Virus record (IMG/VR): IMGVR_UViG_3300034068_000169
Location: 1 to 31,124 of that record
DNA from: a virus
Reading direction: 5' to 3' (one strand)
Length of the DNA: 31,124 bases
Position numbers and translations under genes: made by a program. Position 1 is the first letter of the stretch, and each line of letters opens with the position of its first letter. The notes beneath the pieces were generated by a model, which was given only the letters and a program-made list of their open reading frames with translations, had not been told where the DNA came from and did no database searches. Shown one piece after another: positions 6,304 through 30,146 of the stretch.

Positions 6304-6730
6304 ATTGTTTTAATTTTTCTAAATATAAAATCATATCCATTGCTTCTTCTTGTGCGTGTTGTAGCCACTCTAAGCGTGTTAAATCTGTTCTATCAAGTGT
6401 AACGCCATATTTATTTATTCCTACTTCAGAACGTTGTTTAAATTGTTCTATAACTGATTCTACTATTGTATCTTTTGTTTGTTCTTTTTCAAATTTCATA
6501 TATAAAAAACCTGAATTTTCACATCCATATTCATTTTTCCACCAATGCATTCCATTTTGCACGTTATTTAATACGTAATGATTTTCAGCCAACCATTCGG
6601 AAAATTTTACTTTATCTTTATTTTGTAAATTCATACACCAATCTTCAATAGTTATTTCTTTATCTTTCATTTTCTTTTTTATTTTATTTTCTCTTTTTGG
6701 TCTTTCAAATATATCTATTGTTGTCCACAT
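6293..6730 (-). CDS. Possible MazG-like nucleotide-metabolism protein
   Basis: The 145-residue protein has an unknown N-terminal part with several Trp and two Cys. Its C-terminal helical segment includes KYGVTLDRTDLTRLEWL followed by QEEAMDMILYLEKL. The EWLxHxQEE...D arrangement resembles all-alpha NTP pyrophosphohydrolase-like proteins that are common in phages. If correct it may trim non-canonical nucleotides or sense nucleotide pools; the full metal-binding set (EExxE plus a later ExxD) is not clearly complete. It couples to its neighbours by short overlaps. Confidence 0.5.
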   Translation of the reverse strand: MWTTIDIFERPKRENKIKKKMKDKEITIEDWCMNLQNKDKVKFSEWLAENHYVLNNVQNGMHWWKNEYGCENSGFLYMKFEKEQTKDTIVESVIEQFKQRSEVGINKYGVTLDRTDLTRLEWLQHAQEEAMDMILYLEKLKQYEK

Positions 6731-8336: not shown

Positions 8337-9011
8337 TTAAATTAGTATTAATTGTTTTTCTGTTATTTTATTTCCTTTTTTTAAATTATCTATTGCCCAT
8401 AAAGGTTGAAAATTAGTGTAATGATTTAATTTTATTAATTCATCTTCATCTTTTGCTAAAGATATAGGATAAATGTGGTCAAGATGCCATTGTCCTTGAT
8501 TTTGCCAACTCATTCCTTTAGCAAATTGTCTTTCTAAATGATGCTTAAATTCTTCAAATGTGCATCCAAGTAATTGATATGTTCTTGATTTTTTAGTATA
8601 TCCTTGTCTTTTAATTGATAATAAAATTAAATTTCTTATATTACATTTTAATTTAAATAAAGGTTCATTTTCTTTTCTAAAATTTGTATTTTTATTTCTT
8701 TTAACTTTATTATTTAAACGATATTGTTTATAATATTCTTTATTATTTGAACTCCATTTATTTTTTCTTTCTCTTTCTTTTTCTAAATTATTTAAACGAT
8801 ATTCTTTATAATATTCTTTAAATAATTCTTTATTTTTTAACGTATATTTTTTTTTATTATTTTTTATTTGTTCTTTATTATTTAATCTATATTTATTTCC
8901 ATAATTTTTTATACAAATTTTACAAGAACCGTTAAATCCATCTTTATTTTGTTTAGCTTTGCCAAATTCAGTTAATTCTTTTTCTTCTTTACATTTAGTA
9001 CATTGTTTCAT
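8337..9011 (-). CDS. HNH endonuclease with zinc-finger N terminus and YRLNN repeats
   Basis: Residues are counted from ATG 9011; ATG 9017 is an alternative two codons earlier. The 224-residue protein has a four-Cys zinc site (C4, C7, C30, C33), then a very basic Lys/Asn/Tyr-rich linker in which YRLNN recurs at 41, 71 and 97, and a C-terminal HNH nuclease: WHLDHIYP (175-182), N200 and PLWAIDNLKKG (203-213). The linker may contact DNA along its length. It overlaps the sigma-like gene by 17 bases. It may be a free-standing homing-type nuclease or take part in packaging or recombination. Confidence 0.85.
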   Translation of the reverse strand: MKQCTKCKEEKELTEFGKAKQNKDGFNGSCKICIKNYGNKYRLNNKEQIKNNKKKYTLKNKELFKEYYKEYRLNNLEKERERKNKWSSNNKEYYKQYRLNNKVKRNKNTNFRKENEPLFKLKCNIRNLILLSIKRQGYTKKSRTYQLLGCTFEEFKHHLERQFAKGMSWQNQGQWHLDHIYPISLAKDEDELIKLNHYTNFQPLWAIDNLKKGNKITEKQLILI

Positions 9012-9537
9012 AATCATTTTCTATATAATCAGTATAATCTTTTTGGAACTTAGTATTTAATATTTCTTTGTAATTCTTAATACTATGGAAAATTGATATT
9101 AAACTAATATTGGTTTCTTTTGCAATATCTCGCATAGACATATCTGTATCACGATATAATTTAAAAAGTTTGCGGTCATACCAATGCCAATTATCTATTT
9201 CTTCATCTATCATTAAACATATATCATTGTACGCTTTATGTTCTTCTACGTTTGAATCATCAAATAATTCCCAACACCCATCAAAAGATACTTTATTAAT
9301 CTTTTTCTTTTTGTTGTAAAACTGATAATATAAAGAACGTAAAGTGAAATAAACATAACCCTTTCTTACATTTCCATTTGCATCTAATATTTTTTCAGCT
9401 GATGCATATTTCATTAAAGCTATATATGTTTCTTGTACGATGTCTTGTGCATAATCGAATTCCCCAAACTTATGTATCACCTCAACCCATTCTTTGTGAT
9501 GCTTTGCAACTTGTTCTAACCATTTGTAGTCGTCCAT
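8995..9537 (-). CDS. Sigma-70-like RNA polymerase factor
   Basis: The 180-residue protein has a region-2-like helix DYAQDIVQETYIALMKYA (28-45) and a C-terminal region-4-like helix-turn-helix (MSMRDIAKETNISLISIF, 133-150). This matches short phage sigma-like proteins of the ECF type. It probably redirects host RNA polymerase to phage promoters. I infer that its targets are the three late sites sharing ACAATT-N13-ATTATAAT (19449, 22880, 30160), because the gene lies in the early region and those sites lack the host TAnnTTTG box. It overlaps its neighbours on both sides. Confidence 0.8.
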   Translation of the reverse strand: MDDYKWLEQVAKHHKEWVEVIHKFGEFDYAQDIVQETYIALMKYASAEKILDANGNVRKGYVYFTLRSLYYQFYNKKKKINKVSFDGCWELFDDSNVEEHKAYNDICLMIDEEIDNWHWYDRKLFKLYRDTDMSMRDIAKETNISLISIFHSIKNYKEILNTKFQKDYTDYIENDYETMY

Positions 9538-10014: not shown

Positions 10015-10856
10015 TAAAATATATCTTTTAGTGGGTCGTAAAAAGCACCTTCAACTTGTGGCAATCCAAAACTATTAACTTTAAAACTAAAGTTTTCAAA
10101 TGATGCGTTTCTTGAACGTTTACAACTTACTGTTACTAATCCTTTGTTTACTGTGTTTAACTCTAATTGTATTTGTGTTTCTGTTTTCTTTTCTAAAAAT
10201 GAACCTAAATGACCTGTAGGCTTATCTGAACCGAAGTTGCTATGTATTACAGTTATTATATGACAATTTAATTCTTTAGTCCATTTCATAAGTTTCTGAA
10301 CTACATTATTAGATTCTTCTATATTGTTTACATCAGAACATAAATCTGCTATTCCATCAATAATTACCAATCCAATATTTTTACCTTCTAATTTGTCGTA
10401 AAGATAATATTCTATAAAGTCTATTCTTTCTTTAAATGATAATTGTCTAAGTGCTAACGTATGATATTTATCTGATTTTATTCCTGTCATATCAATTGGT
10501 CTTTTAAATACCATTGCAGCGTGAAAATTCCCTTGCTCAGTATCAAAATGTACTAAATGTTTATCTTCTCTATTTGCTTTTAAATCACCGCAAAATGATT
10601 CTAAATGTTCAGCTAAATAAATTGCTGATAATAAACTTACAAAAAAAGTTTTCTTTGATTTTGGTGGTGCTTGTATAAAGCTAAAATTTCCGTATGTTCC
10701 TAATGGTACTGGATAACTTACTTCACCATCTTTTGTCTCATAACTTTTAGTTCCAAATGATATAGCTGGTTTTGGATGTTCTATCTTTTCTAATGGATTA
10801 ATAAAGCAATCTTCCTCGTACATTTGCATTAATAACCTTTGTGCTTCTATATCCAT
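10014..10856 (-). CDS. RecA-like (RepA/DnaB-type) ATPase, probable replicative helicase
   Basis: The 280-residue protein has a P-loop-like APPKSKKT (63-70), in which the usual GxxxxGKT glycines are replaced, a Walker B LVIIDG (163-168), and a motif-3 segment ITVIHSNFG (201-209). The layout fits the AAA_25/RepA branch of RecA-like hexameric helicases. As the only helicase candidate here, it probably unwinds DNA at the phage origin. It follows the SSB-like gene after a terminator, with no clear promoter of its own, so read-through is likely. The degenerate P-loop is seen in some phage relatives and does not by itself mean an inactive enzyme. Confidence 0.8.
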   Translation of the reverse strand: MDIEAQRLLMQMYEEDCFINPLEKIEHPKPAISFGTKSYETKDGEVSYPVPLGTYGNFSFIQAPPKSKKTFFVSLLSAIYLAEHLESFCGDLKANREDKHLVHFDTEQGNFHAAMVFKRPIDMTGIKSDKYHTLALRQLSFKERIDFIEYYLYDKLEGKNIGLVIIDGIADLCSDVNNIEESNNVVQKLMKWTKELNCHIITVIHSNFGSDKPTGHLGSFLEKKTETQIQLELNTVNKGLVTVSCKRSRNASFENFSFKVNSFGLPQVEGAFYDPLKDIF

Positions 10857-10875
10857 ATTATTGTTTTCTTTGTTT

Positions 10876-10899
10876 AAAAAAAGGGGCTTTTACACCCCT
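10876..10899 (-). terminator. Rho-independent terminator, GTAAAA loop
   Basis: On the minus strand a GC-rich stem AGGGG/CCCCT with a T-G closing pair surrounds a GTAAAA loop and is followed by seven T. It begins 8 bases after the stop of the SSB-like gene. It may lower expression of the ATPase and sigma-like genes relative to SSB and ERF. The loop matches that of the terminator at 12327-12353. Confidence 0.85.
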
Positions 10900-10906
10900 A
10901 TTAAAT

Positions 10907-11203
10907 TTAGAACGGTAAATCCGACTCTACTTCTTTTGCAGTAACTTCTACTTTTTTATCAGCAAGTTTAATGTTACCATCTGTCCAAACTACATTACCA
11001 TTTCCTAAATAAGACTTTGGCTTTTTAGCTTCACGTTCTTCTTTAGTTTGTGAATCTGTTGCTGATACATTTTGTCCCCATTGATTTGAATCATCATTTA
11101 CTCCAATTGTAAAATTGTAATAAACTGCTCCATCTTTACCTTGAACAAATTTTTCTTTTGGTAACTTGTCTACTCTTAAACTTAAATTAATTAACGCACT
11201 CAT
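10907..11203 (-). CDS. Single-stranded DNA-binding protein-like
   Basis: The 98-residue protein has an OB-fold-like series of strands in its first half (MSALINLSLRVDKLPKEKF, then KDGAVYYNFTIGVNDD) and ends with the acidic tip ESDLPF, the hallmark by which bacterial SSB proteins recruit partners. It is shorter than host SSB. It lies next to an ERF-type annealing protein, as in many phage recombination cassettes, and directly before a terminator, suggesting high expression. Confidence 0.75.
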   Translation of the reverse strand: MSALINLSLRVDKLPKEKFVQGKDGAVYYNFTIGVNDDSNQWGQNVSATDSQTKEEREAKKPKSYLGNGNVVWTDGNIKLADKKVEVTAKEVESDLPF

Positions 11204-22911: not shown

Positions 22912-24759
22912 TTAACCCATTGAAGCATTATTGATAATGTTTCTATTTAAAGACTGACCTGTTGTAACATCTCCTGCAGTTACATAAGTTTTTATAGGTT
23001 GTTGTTCTTTTGAACCTATAGTTTGTGCTAATTGATTTGCTCCGCCTTGACCTACAACATTAAAACTTGGAGCAGTCATTCCGCCACCACTACCACCTAC
23101 ATTTCCTGCACTTGGAGTTCCACCACCACCTAAAGCAGATAAACCTTTTGCAGTTGCAGCAATATTAGAAGCTATACCTATTCCAGCACCAATAGTATTG
23201 ATTATCCTTGACCTAACACCGTATGTTGGGTCGATTGCATTTATAGGTGAAGCAGTTGCTATAGCGTTTGCAGTTTGTGTATTAATAATAATTTTAGCTA
23301 TGCCTAAAGCACTTTCTGTTATCATTGCTACTTTCTGAATTGCTTTATTTTTTTCAAACAACCCTTTTATTAATCCTATTCCTGATTCTATAGCTGCAAA
23401 TCCAGCATCTTGAATTGCTTTTTTTGCGTCTGCTACTGCTTTTTCATTTGCTATTGTTACTTTATTAGTTTCTTTTTGATTAGTTATTAAAGCGTTATCT
23501 GTATCTTTCTTTTTAATTAAAAATTCATTTTCAGCGTCTACTCTTGCTTGTGTTCCATCAGCATATAATTTTCTCTTACGTAATAATTCAGCATTATCTA
23601 TTTCTTGCTGTAATACTATAACTTCTCTTTGCTTTTCTAATTTTTTTATTTCAGTTAATTCTTGTTCTGAATCAAACTGTTTTGATTTAATATTTAATTC
23701 ATTTTTTGTGTCTATTTGACTTTGCAATAATTCATTAGATTCTTTAGTTAATGAATTCTCATTTGCAAGTTGTTCACTTTTCAAACCTTTAATCTGTGCT
23801 AATACCCCTTCTACATTTGCTTCTGCATTAATTAATGCTACTCTATTTTCAGTAGTTTTATTAAGGTTATATGTAGCAGCAGCAGCATCCTTTTGTAAAT
23901 TTGCTGCCTTAAGCATTGCCACTTCTTGTTTTTCTAATATAGTTTTTAATTTATCATTAGCCTTTATTCTATCTGAAATAGATAATAAATCATTATCTCT
24001 TATTTGTCTTTGACTTTCTGCTTGTCTATCATATTGTTCAACTAATTTAGCTTGTTGAGCAGCTGCTATTAAAGCGGAATTTTGAAGTTTAATATTTGCT
24101 TCCGATGCTTTTAAAGTTTTTACTGCATAATTACCTATTGCATCAGCAGTATCACCAATAGCTTTTTTACCTCTATCAAAAGTATTATTAACTCCACTTA
24201 AAATATCAATAGATTCTTTACCTGCTTGTTTAACAGATTCCATTGCACCAGCAAAATCTCCTTCAAATACTTTTTTTAATGCACTTCCTAAATATCCTAC
24301 AGTATCTAAAAATGAATTAAATCTTTCAATTAAATTTTCTTTAATTAAATCACCAAACTTTTTTAAATATGTAGTTGGGTTTTCAAATACATCTTTAAAT
24401 ATTTTAACAACAGATGGAAAATTATCCATTACAAATCCAAATAAATCATTAAAAGCAATAGATAAAGCACCTATAACAGTGTTAAAAGCATCTACAACTT
24501 TTTGATTCTTACCTAATACTTCTTTAAATAAATTAAAGGCTTCCATTACTAAACCAATACCAATTGCCTTAACAGCTAATCCCATTCCTTTAAATCCATC
24601 AGCCAAAGATTTAACTCCTGCTTCAGCACTTTTAGTTGACTTCTGTATTCCTTTTATTTCATCAGCAGTATCTTCAAAAGAATTACCTAATTTTTTAACA
24701 TCTTTAGTTATGCTATCTAAATTACTTTCTATTTTTAACGTAACTACTTTATTTTCCAT
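22912..24759 (-). CDS. Tape measure protein
   Basis: It sets tail length and is threaded through the tail tube. The 615-residue protein has an N-terminal helical part, a hydrophobic stretch near 55-75 (GMGLAVKAIGIGLVMEAF), long Ala/Gln/Lys-rich coiled coil (about 210-470) and hydrophobic C-terminal helices (AMITESALGIAKIIINTQTA-like). The C terminus TYVTAGDVTTGQSLNRNIIN, ending NASMG, is a mark of Bacteroidota phage tape measures. At 615 residues it predicts a rather short tail (inference). Its start overlaps a 48-residue gene by 16 bases. Confidence 0.9.
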   Translation of the reverse strand: MENKVVTLKIESNLDSITKDVKKLGNSFEDTADEIKGIQKSTKSAEAGVKSLADGFKGMGLAVKAIGIGLVMEAFNLFKEVLGKNQKVVDAFNTVIGALSIAFNDLFGFVMDNFPSVVKIFKDVFENPTTYLKKFGDLIKENLIERFNSFLDTVGYLGSALKKVFEGDFAGAMESVKQAGKESIDILSGVNNTFDRGKKAIGDTADAIGNYAVKTLKASEANIKLQNSALIAAAQQAKLVEQYDRQAESQRQIRDNDLLSISDRIKANDKLKTILEKQEVAMLKAANLQKDAAAATYNLNKTTENRVALINAEANVEGVLAQIKGLKSEQLANENSLTKESNELLQSQIDTKNELNIKSKQFDSEQELTEIKKLEKQREVIVLQQEIDNAELLRKRKLYADGTQARVDAENEFLIKKKDTDNALITNQKETNKVTIANEKAVADAKKAIQDAGFAAIESGIGLIKGLFEKNKAIQKVAMITESALGIAKIIINTQTANAIATASPINAIDPTYGVRSRIINTIGAGIGIASNIAATAKGLSALGGGGTPSAGNVGGSGGGMTAPSFNVVGQGGANQLAQTIGSKEQQPIKTYVTAGDVTTGQSLNRNIINNASMG

Positions 24760-28425: not shown

Positions 28426-28952
28426 TTTATATCTTTTAAATTATAATCTACCATTGTTTCTATATCTTGTCCAAATGCTTTAATTAAATCAACATCTATA
28501 TATTTTTTATATCCTGCTTCAAATGGTTTAGTAAAAAACAAACTTGGTTTAATTCCTTTGTGAAATATTGAGCGAGTAATTAAATAAGCTGTTGAATCAT
28601 AACTTAAAAACTTACCTGATTTTTTATCACGAAATTGAAATCCTTTTTGTTTGACCCATTGATTAATTCCTTTTGTTAAACCGCCTTTTTTACCTGTACC
28701 TGAACCAAACTTATAAGGACTATCAGGAGCTTTATTAGAACTTGTTTTACCTTTAACACCTAAGTCTAAAAATGTTCCATAATCTGCCATTTGAAAGCCT
28801 ACAATAGTATATCCATTTTCTGTTACTACTTCGCCTTTTAAACTGTTGTATAATGATTTACTATTATTATGTCCAGTCTTTGATAGATTACTTCTTGACT
28901 GTTGAATAACATAATCACGAAATTTAGTTATAACCTTTTCAACTTCTAACAT
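28422..28952 (-). CDS. HK97 gp10-like tail-completion protein
   Basis: The 176-residue protein has the gp10-type features DYGTFLDLGVKG (about 57-68), SPYKFGSGTGKKGGL, a WVKQKGFQFR segment, and KGIKPSLFFTKPFE (about 132-145). It probably completes the head-proximal end of the tail or helps joining. It overlaps the neighbouring completion gene by seven bases. Confidence 0.8.
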   Translation of the reverse strand: MLEVEKVITKFRDYVIQQSRSNLSKTGHNNSKSLYNSLKGEVVTENGYTIVGFQMADYGTFLDLGVKGKTSSNKAPDSPYKFGSGTGKKGGLTKGINQWVKQKGFQFRDKKSGKFLSYDSTAYLITRSIFHKGIKPSLFFTKPFEAGYKKYIDVDLIKAFGQDIETMVDYNLKDIK

Positions 28953-29401
28953 TTAGTCATTGAATTTTGTATTGCAATATCAAATGTGTATGTAACTCCA
29001 GCTATTTTATTTTCAAATCTTTCAGTAAAGAATTCTATTGATGCAGTGTTGTTTACTAACTCATAATCTTCAGCTAATGTACCACGTCTTAATACTTCTA
29101 AGAATCTATTTGCTACAGCTAATTGTGTATTTAAAACATCTTGCTCATTGTCATTGCCTATAAATATATCAGTTGTTAATTCTTTAGATTCATCTACAAT
29201 ATCCATACTTAAAATAGATATATTATAATTCAATACAGCACCCTGATATGAAACTGAATTTACTATAATATGACTTAAAGGAAATATAGTCTGTTTGTTT
29301 AAATCAACTTTAAATATATCACCAGTAGTAACTGTGTTTACAAAAGCATCTTCTTGTAGTTGATTCTTTATTGCTTGTGTTATTTCGTAAAATGTACTCA
29401 T
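28946..29401 (-). CDS. Tail completion / terminator-like protein (151 aa)
   Basis: The product shows NTVTTGDIFKVDLNKQTIF (23-41), VLNYNISILSMDIVDESKEL and NEQDVLNTQLAVANRFLEVL, motifs that I recall in a Bacteroidota phage tail-completion family (functional analogue of tail terminators). It lies between the tail assembly chaperone and the gp10-like gene, as expected for head-tail joining. Its ATG overlaps the stop of the frameshifted chaperone extension (TAATG), which supports that extension. Confidence 0.75.
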   Translation of the reverse strand: MSTFYEITQAIKNQLQEDAFVNTVTTGDIFKVDLNKQTIFPLSHIIVNSVSYQGAVLNYNISILSMDIVDESKELTTDIFIGNDNEQDVLNTQLAVANRFLEVLRRGTLAEDYELVNNTASIEFFTERFENKIAGVTYTFDIAIQNSMTKC

Positions 29402-29652
29402 TATCTTTTTTTAATTAAATCTGATTCTATTTGATTCTTTTGTTTCTCAAATGTTAAATATGTTAAACATTGGTTAATTGGTAGTTCGGTAACTCTATCA
29501 AATTGGATAAGGTTTCCTTGAGCAATAGCATAGATTGAACTATACCATCCCCATCTTTTTCCAAATTGTGCTGATGCAGAATAGTCTGAATCTCCTTGTT
29601 GTTCTCCAAATAAGTCAGTGTACTTTTCAATAGTTCGTTGCCTAAAGTGTAA
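29401..29652 (-). CDS. -1 frame extension of tail assembly chaperone (gpGT-like)
   Basis: After a -1 shift at the T9 run (29659-29651), an open frame of 83 codons ends with TAA at 29403-29401. The predicted fusion is 248 residues: 165 from the zero frame and 83 from this frame. The extension includes FGKRWGWYSSIYAIAQGN and FDRVTELP followed by CLTYLTFEKQKNQ. I recognise these as conserved in the C-terminal part of Bacteroidota phage tail chaperones. Its stop overlaps the ATG of the next gene. It corresponds to gpGT of lambda in role: the longer product would bridge tape measure and tube protein. Confidence 0.85.
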   Translation of the reverse strand, partial: LHFRQRTIEKYTDLFGEQQGDSDYSASAQFGKRWGWYSSIYAIAQGNLIQFDRVTELPINQCLTYLTFEKQKNQIESDLIKKR

Positions 29653-30146
29653 AAAAAAACATTGGCACCAAATACAATATCTAAAGGTGCGTGTTTCATT
29701 ACTTCACTGTATGTTATTGAACCATTATATTTTTCAATCTCATACGTGCCATTTAAACCATTCTTTTTAATTGGTCTATATAATACTGCCATTGCTTTAT
29801 GCATTTGCTCCCAGTCGTTTATATACGTATCTAAGTCTGTATATTCACCAAATGTCATATCATCTAAGTTAGGTATAAACCCAAATTCAACACCACCCAT
29901 TTTAAATCTACTGATAAACTTATGATTTTTAACATCAAACATTTTACCAAGTGATTCAGTAATTTCTATTACTTCTTTATATCTTATTTCTGCAACTTCT
30001 TTTAAGTCTATACCGCAAAACGTTTGAACCATTTTTTGATGTAAGAATTCTTCGTCTGTGTTATCTTTAGCTATCTTTAAAAATGCTTGATACTGTGATA
30101 ACTTAATTTCATTTAATTCTGTTGGTATGCTAATTTCTAACTTCAT
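29463..30146 (-). CDS. Tail assembly chaperone, zero-frame product (gpG-like)
   Basis: I place the start at ATG 30146; a longer frame to 30209 would run through a terminator and late-promoter-like site and is rejected. The 227-residue product begins MKLEISIPTELNEIKLSQYQ and contains a helical core (CGIDLKEVAEIRYKEVIEIT) and FGANVFFYTLGNELLKSTL around the slippery site. Position before the tail completion and tape measure genes, plus the frameshift, identify it as the G-type chaperone. The segment after the slip site (ENNKEIQ to the LTNV end) overlaps the extension frame, so this stretch is coded twice. Confidence 0.85.
   Translation of the reverse strand: MKLEISIPTELNEIKLSQYQAFLKIAKDNTDEEFLHQKMVQTFCGIDLKEVAEIRYKEVIEITESLGKMFDVKNHKFISRFKMGGVEFGFIPNLDDMTFGEYTDLDTYINDWEQMHKAMAVLYRPIKKNGLNGTYEIEKYNGSITYSEVMKHAPLDIVFGANVFFYTLGNELLKSTLTYLENNKEIQTILHQHNLEKDGDGIVQSMLLLKETLSNLIELPNYQLTNV
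29651..29660 (-). promoter_or_regulatory. Slippery site for -1 ribosomal frameshifting
   Basis: On the minus strand GTTTTTTTTTAC holds nine T after G. Read as GTT TTT TTT TAC it contains the perfect heptamer T TTT TTT, which permits full re-pairing after a -1 slip. No strong stem-loop directly after it was obvious by eye; a slippery run may suffice. Confidence 0.8.

Follow-up and report, generated by a model that had tools for sequence, protein, structure and literature searches.

The kind of gene considered here, in which a −1 change of frame yields a short protein and an extended one, is already defined by lambda G/GT and P2 E/E′ (PMC5009743, PMC3931495). In lambda gpG/gpGT, the extension forms a second domain (PMC5009743). 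The −1 extension of P2 E/E′ has no ribosome binding site of its own and overlaps the start of the next gene, and P2 and the P2-like phages tolerate several T-run slippery sites (T6G, T7G or T7C) in this tail chaperone gene (PMC3931495). Homopolymers also give rise to two products in Shigella mxiE and spa13 and in Thermus dnaX, with nine A in dnaX and a U run in mxiE (PMC1088944, PMC5009743). Both mxiE and Thermus dnaX are established cases of T9 or A9 slippage (PMC1088944); in spa13, slippage yields 25–30% of extended product (PMC5009743).

The gene described here lies in the window, the whole stretch of 31,124 nucleotides of viral DNA that was analysed (IMG/VR record IMGVR_UViG_3300034068_000169). 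It resembles the P2 gene in its T-run slip site and its probable tail chaperone function, and the lambda gene in its short and extended products, the extension again being a second domain. In contrast to P2, the run of at least nine T is never interrupted in this family, 186 nt are dual-coded (P2 E′ reaches 37 nt back into E), the slip falls at codon 165 of 227 instead of near the 3′ end, and sequence homology is not detectable. Compared to lambda, the slip site is different, the zero-frame product carries its own conserved tail of 62 residues, and four genes lie between the two-frame gene and the likely tape measure gene. Nearby stops in other frames are a feature in common with dnaX (PMC1088944), and an extension that overlaps the next gene start is a feature in common with spa13 (PMC5009743), although mxiE, spa13 and dnaX are not phage tail genes. 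This is not a new kind of system but an unusual variant of a known one; it differs in its uninterrupted site of at least nine T, in a long stretch read in two frames where the zero-frame tail is conserved, and in a documented replacement of the slip site.

Layout and conservation of the two-frame gene

The two-frame gene and its surroundings comprise the following features.

29463..30146, minus strand: zero-frame gene, an open reading frame of 227 residues with an MKLEIS start kept in relatives; residues 1–165 are the N domain and 166–227 the zero-frame C-terminal tail
29651..29659, minus strand: slip site, a run of exactly nine T with T_TTT_TTT in phase at 29658–29652
29404..29652, minus strand: −1 frame domain (T-like), 83 codons after the heptamer, open in all relatives
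29401..29403, minus strand: −1 frame stop TAA, with one base common to the next ATG (29401–29399; TAATG)
29466..29651, minus strand: dual-frame stretch, 186 nt or 62 zero-frame codons, with an intermediate substitution pattern
29642..29644, minus strand: third-frame (+1) stop TAG, two codons past the slip site
28946..29401, minus strand: next gene, its start overlapping the −1 stop; phrog_30964, function unassigned
22912..24759, minus strand: tape measure candidate, 615 residues; phrog_21537, virion structural protein

The start codon is the ATG at 30146 and the zero-frame stop occupies 29463–29465. A longer start at an upstream ATG (30209) was rejected, as the alignments of relatives begin at MKLEIS. 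The original prediction had described an in-phase T_TTT_TTT inside nine T, a −1 frame open for 83 codons that contains FGKRWGWYSSIYAIAQGN and FDRVTELP, a −1 stop at a TAATG overlap with the next gene, and about 190 bases read in two frames. Each of these was located as described, both sequence motifs falling within the −1 domain, and the dual-coded length was refined to 186 nt. The −1 fusion is 248 residues long. The +1 frame is shut after two codons in 156 of 157 loci, and this conserved early stop may be a by-product of two coded frames. By position, the next gene is a tail or neck protein. The gene at 22912..24759, which from its sequence we take to be the likely tape measure gene, lies downstream of the two-frame gene and is separated from it by four others. 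The only other coding run of nine in the window is an A9 in a gene of 226 residues at 8337–9017. The terminase large subunit and the two-frame gene are found at opposite ends of the contig (window 161–1369 and 30146–31124), and in P12024S the terminase directly precedes the two-frame gene; the contig therefore looks like a circularly permuted, near-complete genome.

Public searches returned relatives among IMG/VR loci (26% to 96% identity), in the cultured Nonlabens phages P12024S and P12024L (∼27% identity), and in three bacterial MAG contigs labelled Bacteroidetes or Winogradskyella. A uniform profile analysis of 325 loci, which form 109 clusters at 80% nucleotide identity, identified the C-terminal domain in 322, the remaining three being cut by a contig end. 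The second domain is in the −1 frame in every one of the 322 loci having both domains. The run at the junction is T9 in 311 of these loci, T10 in eight and T12 in one, and never T7 or T8; where it is T10 or T12, the second domain is still in −1 relative to the first. Only two of the 322 depart from a run of at least nine: L131, where the site is deleted, and L274, which belongs to a clade with A_AAT_TTT (see below). The deletion in L131 removes ∼45 codons including the slip site, with the −1 domain still open, and is either real or an assembly artefact. Of the ∼286 loci in which the overlap could be scored, 247 have the −1 stop and the following ATG overlapping by 4 nt or 1 nt. Stops in the −1 frame of homologues would have been at odds with the prediction; none occurs in the −1 domain of any scorable homologue.

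Variation in the two frames among relatives, a comparison that the original prediction had proposed, was analysed by codon position in 552 pairs at 75–92% identity. Upstream of the site, the differences per site at codon positions 1, 2 and 3 are 0.12, 0.08 and 0.35, the pattern of the zero frame. Past the zero-frame stop, they are 0.15, 0.08 and 0.29, with the third-position excess now in the −1 frame. The values for the overlap (0.21, 0.14 and 0.20) lie between the two patterns. By this measure, both frames are under purifying selection. Synonymous recoding with the zero-frame protein held fixed introduced a mean of 6.5 stops into the −1 frame and left it open in none of 20,000 trials, so the open −1 frame is more than chance would provide; in the converse test, which held the −1 protein constant, 0.6% of recodings left the zero frame open. 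When the two frames were folded apart with AF2, using loci L084 and L085, the zero-frame protein reached a mean pLDDT of 80, and the −1 domain, mostly helical in its model, folded confidently with a pLDDT of 88.

Comparison among the loci shows a conserved −1 domain, a conserved slip site and selection on both frames, and on this basis programmed recoding is nearly certain. The predicted −1 change leading to a 248-residue fusion is upheld by its conservation across the 322 loci, by the codon-position substitutions, and by a natural exchange of the heptamer. We are confident, though short of certain, that this is one gene making two proteins through T9, a short form and the 248-residue fusion, by ribosomal slippage with or without a contribution from the polymerase, and that the pair serves as a chaperone. 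Most expression would end in the zero frame and give the protein of 227 residues, while a minority would move to the −1 frame at T9 and give the fusion, where the helical domain of 83 residues stands in place of the final 62 residues of the zero frame. We infer this expression, the ratio of the products, how far ribosome and polymerase each contribute, and the function as a chaperone. A widespread, unannotated phage family associated with Bacteroidota would thereby gain a two-product tail gene.

Slip-site replacement and the route of the frame change

Starting from L274, we identified a clade (L328–L337, and L274 itself) in which T9 has been lost and the longest T run is four. Its loci are 60–100% identical and have kept the −1 domain whole. 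The junction reads GTA AAT TTT ATT; all 10 loci have a canonical, in-phase A_AAT_TTT that lies one codon upstream of where the site is usually found, against a background of in-phase heptamers in these genes of 0.7% per codon. In L336, the preceding codon has changed from GTA to ATA with the heptamer kept. P12024, which also has T9, served to root a tree built from 111 representatives; there the clade has a support of 0.998 and is nested among T9 lineages, the enclosing groups having supports of 0.92–0.95. T9 is thus most simply the ancestral state, as judged from this tree. That one slip signal has taken the place of another argues more strongly than any other observation that the frame change is itself under selection, and the A_AAT_TTT clade shows that a ribosomal signal would suffice there.

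A mechanism open to the family as a whole would be the slipping of two Phe-tRNAs in tandem on U_UUU_UUU; slippage by RNA polymerase, which would insert one extra U and give the same fusion, probably adds to it in the T9 lineages. The original prediction had put forward a programmed −1 frameshift, with use of a G/GT-type ratio inferred from lambda. Of this, the frame change stands, and RNA polymerase slipping on T9 could share in producing it, with the same products.

That the route is purely ribosomal has close to an even chance. The length of T9 would then follow incidentally from the residues required in the two frames, namely V, I or L before the run and, after it, Leu in the −1 frame and Tyr or Trp in the zero frame. 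All lineages that have kept the site show a canonical X_XXY_YYZ, the A_AAT_TTT clade with no long run among them, and the flanking codons are mostly GTT, CTT or ATT and TAC, TAT or TGG. However, other clades accept Asn, Phe, Ile, Leu and Ser at the flanking sites, so the constraint is not absolute, and the absence of T_TTT_TTC is left unexplained. For E. coli ribosomes, the all-pyrimidine UUY are the shiftier of the UUN codons (PMC4066793).

T-to-C at position 7 of the heptamer is never seen, though in the TTA/TTG majority it would leave the amino acid of either frame unchanged, and TTC is found at 6–39% of the other upstream invariant Phe codons. In P2-like phages, by comparison, the corresponding base does vary (PMC3931495). 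Outside the A_AAT_TTT clade, the run is at least nine in every 80% nucleotide cluster that retains the site, and a clade without the 3′ T (it has a CTG codon) has kept nine T by extension on the 5′ side, which is one event in one lineage. Long runs are depleted elsewhere: runs of at least eight T in other genes number 5 against ∼30 expected (one of the five, L242, being a homologue of the two-frame gene), and runs of at least nine A outside the two-frame gene number 13 against 48 expected, in the coding sequences of the fetched loci. Slippage on nine bases of the U or A type has precedents in mxiE, Thermus dnaX and spa13. These observations make it a serious possibility, somewhat below even, that in the T9 lineages it is mainly RNA polymerase that slips, producing mRNAs with ten U in which the frames are fused and which ribosomes translate normally. 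Against this, the A_AAT_TTT clade cannot work by homopolymer slippage, any T9 contains the ribosomal heptamer, and the known phage cases of such a frame change are ribosomal. The avoidance of runs could also reflect replication indels, and a rarity of long runs is expected where slippage or indels are costly (PMC1088944).

We think that both ribosome and polymerase contribute in the T9 lineages; the arguments are indirect, and the related sequences are not independent of each other. More tentatively, the T9 lineages may make the fusion mainly by polymerase slippage and one lineage may have become ribosomal through the change from T9 to A_AAT_TTT. If true, this switch from polymerase to ribosome would be a phage parallel to dnaX, Thermus versus E. 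coli. In the open-access literature that we searched, polymerase slippage had not been reported for a phage tail chaperone. Members of a single gene family that have either T9 or A_AAT_TTT at the same site provide a natural experiment, which makes the question of ribosome or polymerase directly testable in flavobacteria, in which, to our knowledge, recoding has been little studied.

A stimulator of ribosomal slippage was sought in downstream RNA structure and in upstream Shine–Dalgarno (SD) sequence, and none was found. For the T9 family, a consensus of 39 sequences gave no structure and 60 loci had a mean z of −0.17; in the A_AAT_TTT clade there was nothing convincing, a small CCGTT/AACGG hairpin being broken in two of seven sequences. 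An SD-like sequence precedes the slip site in 35 of 321 loci. Stimulatory RNA structures or SD sequences are common in −1 frameshift genes and are not obligatory. As a stimulator is not a defining requirement, its absence does not exclude a programmed −1 frameshift gene.

Role of the two products

The best inference for the two-frame protein pair is a tail assembly chaperone, based on a weak fold match, marginal PHROG and Pfam hits, a position in the tail module and the G/GT-like design. The identity given in the original prediction is retained in this form, drawn from weak structure and profile evidence, position and architecture. The zero-frame model had no match in the PDB at E≤0.001 by Foldseek. 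The top-scoring match to residues 1–74 was the HK97 tail assembly chaperone (2ob9), with Z of 4.1 for 68 residues and an rmsd of 3.7, a weak fold likeness within the helical noise range, such Z values being common for helical folds; there is no sequence match between the two. For the −1 domain model, only two candidate chains were obtained from the PDB, none with Z≥2. Pfam gave no convincing match for the two frames or their neighbours; one member matched Phage_TAC_7 weakly (E of 0.099). All 70 aligned homologues match phrog_32199, and six members match phrog_166, annotated as "tail protein", with a best E of 0.0011.

The two-frame gene appears to open the tail module. Genes of G/GT-type chaperones usually lie directly upstream of the tape measure gene, a positional hallmark and not a functional requirement. 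The two-frame gene is not in that position, four genes intervening, and in P12024S it adjoins the terminase. This placement, together with a PHROG family (phrog_32199) to which no function is assigned, leaves a small probability that the frameshift is real and the protein pair has another assembly role, in the head–neck region or as some other scaffold. The hint of the HK97 chaperone fold, the phrog_166 and Phage_TAC_7 hints and the G/GT-like design of two products all argue against such a role. If the pair acts as a tail assembly chaperone in the manner of lambda gpG/gpGT and P2 gpE/E+E′, coating of the tape measure protein would fall to the short form, and recruitment of tail tube subunits to the fusion.

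Readings without recoding and distant relatives

In GenBank, the two frames of P12024S and P12024L are separate hypothetical proteins, the −1 part being AFM54700 and AFM54761. This listing is what speaks for regarding the −1 domain as a small independent gene that has a start codon of its own, a reading that we consider highly improbable and have rejected. No ATG, GTG or TTG is present among the 83 −1 codons of the window; in the first 25 codons of the domain, 220 of 321 loci have no start codon and a single one has ATG. Moreover, the start annotated in P12024S drops ∼26 residues that are conserved in relatives, including the LSFRERL segment. The further suspicion, raised with the original prediction, that T9 is a sequencing or assembly indel splitting one gene draws on the error-prone nature of homopolymers; it has virtually no chance of being correct and was rejected, given the agreement of 320 loci, drawn from two cultured phages as well as many metagenomes, the constraint on the zero-frame tail itself, and the −1 relation preserved in the T10 and T12 loci.

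In the deposited annotation of P12024S_39 and P12024L_41 (6528–6695), the gene is divided in two, the −1 domain is cut short, and no frameshift is marked. Flavobacterium phage 6H (10047–10927) was examined as a second case of a frame-changed gene, and no clear one was found. Its structural homologue R9VW65, taken as a gene of 191 residues at 10352–10927, is followed by a −1 stretch of ∼100 codons whose end overlaps the start of the next gene as ATGA. A TAG after T_TTT_TTC in the −1 frame confines any shift to the next 12 nt. The region is kept at ≥97% in ten F. psychrophilum phage records. A match to Vibrio phage 168E36-1 was spurious. Proteins of 226–267 residues in BFVD (A0A6J5N0W0, A0A516L611, A0A516L5A8 and others) match both the zero-frame and the −1 models, which suggests that distant relatives may encode both domains in one frame.
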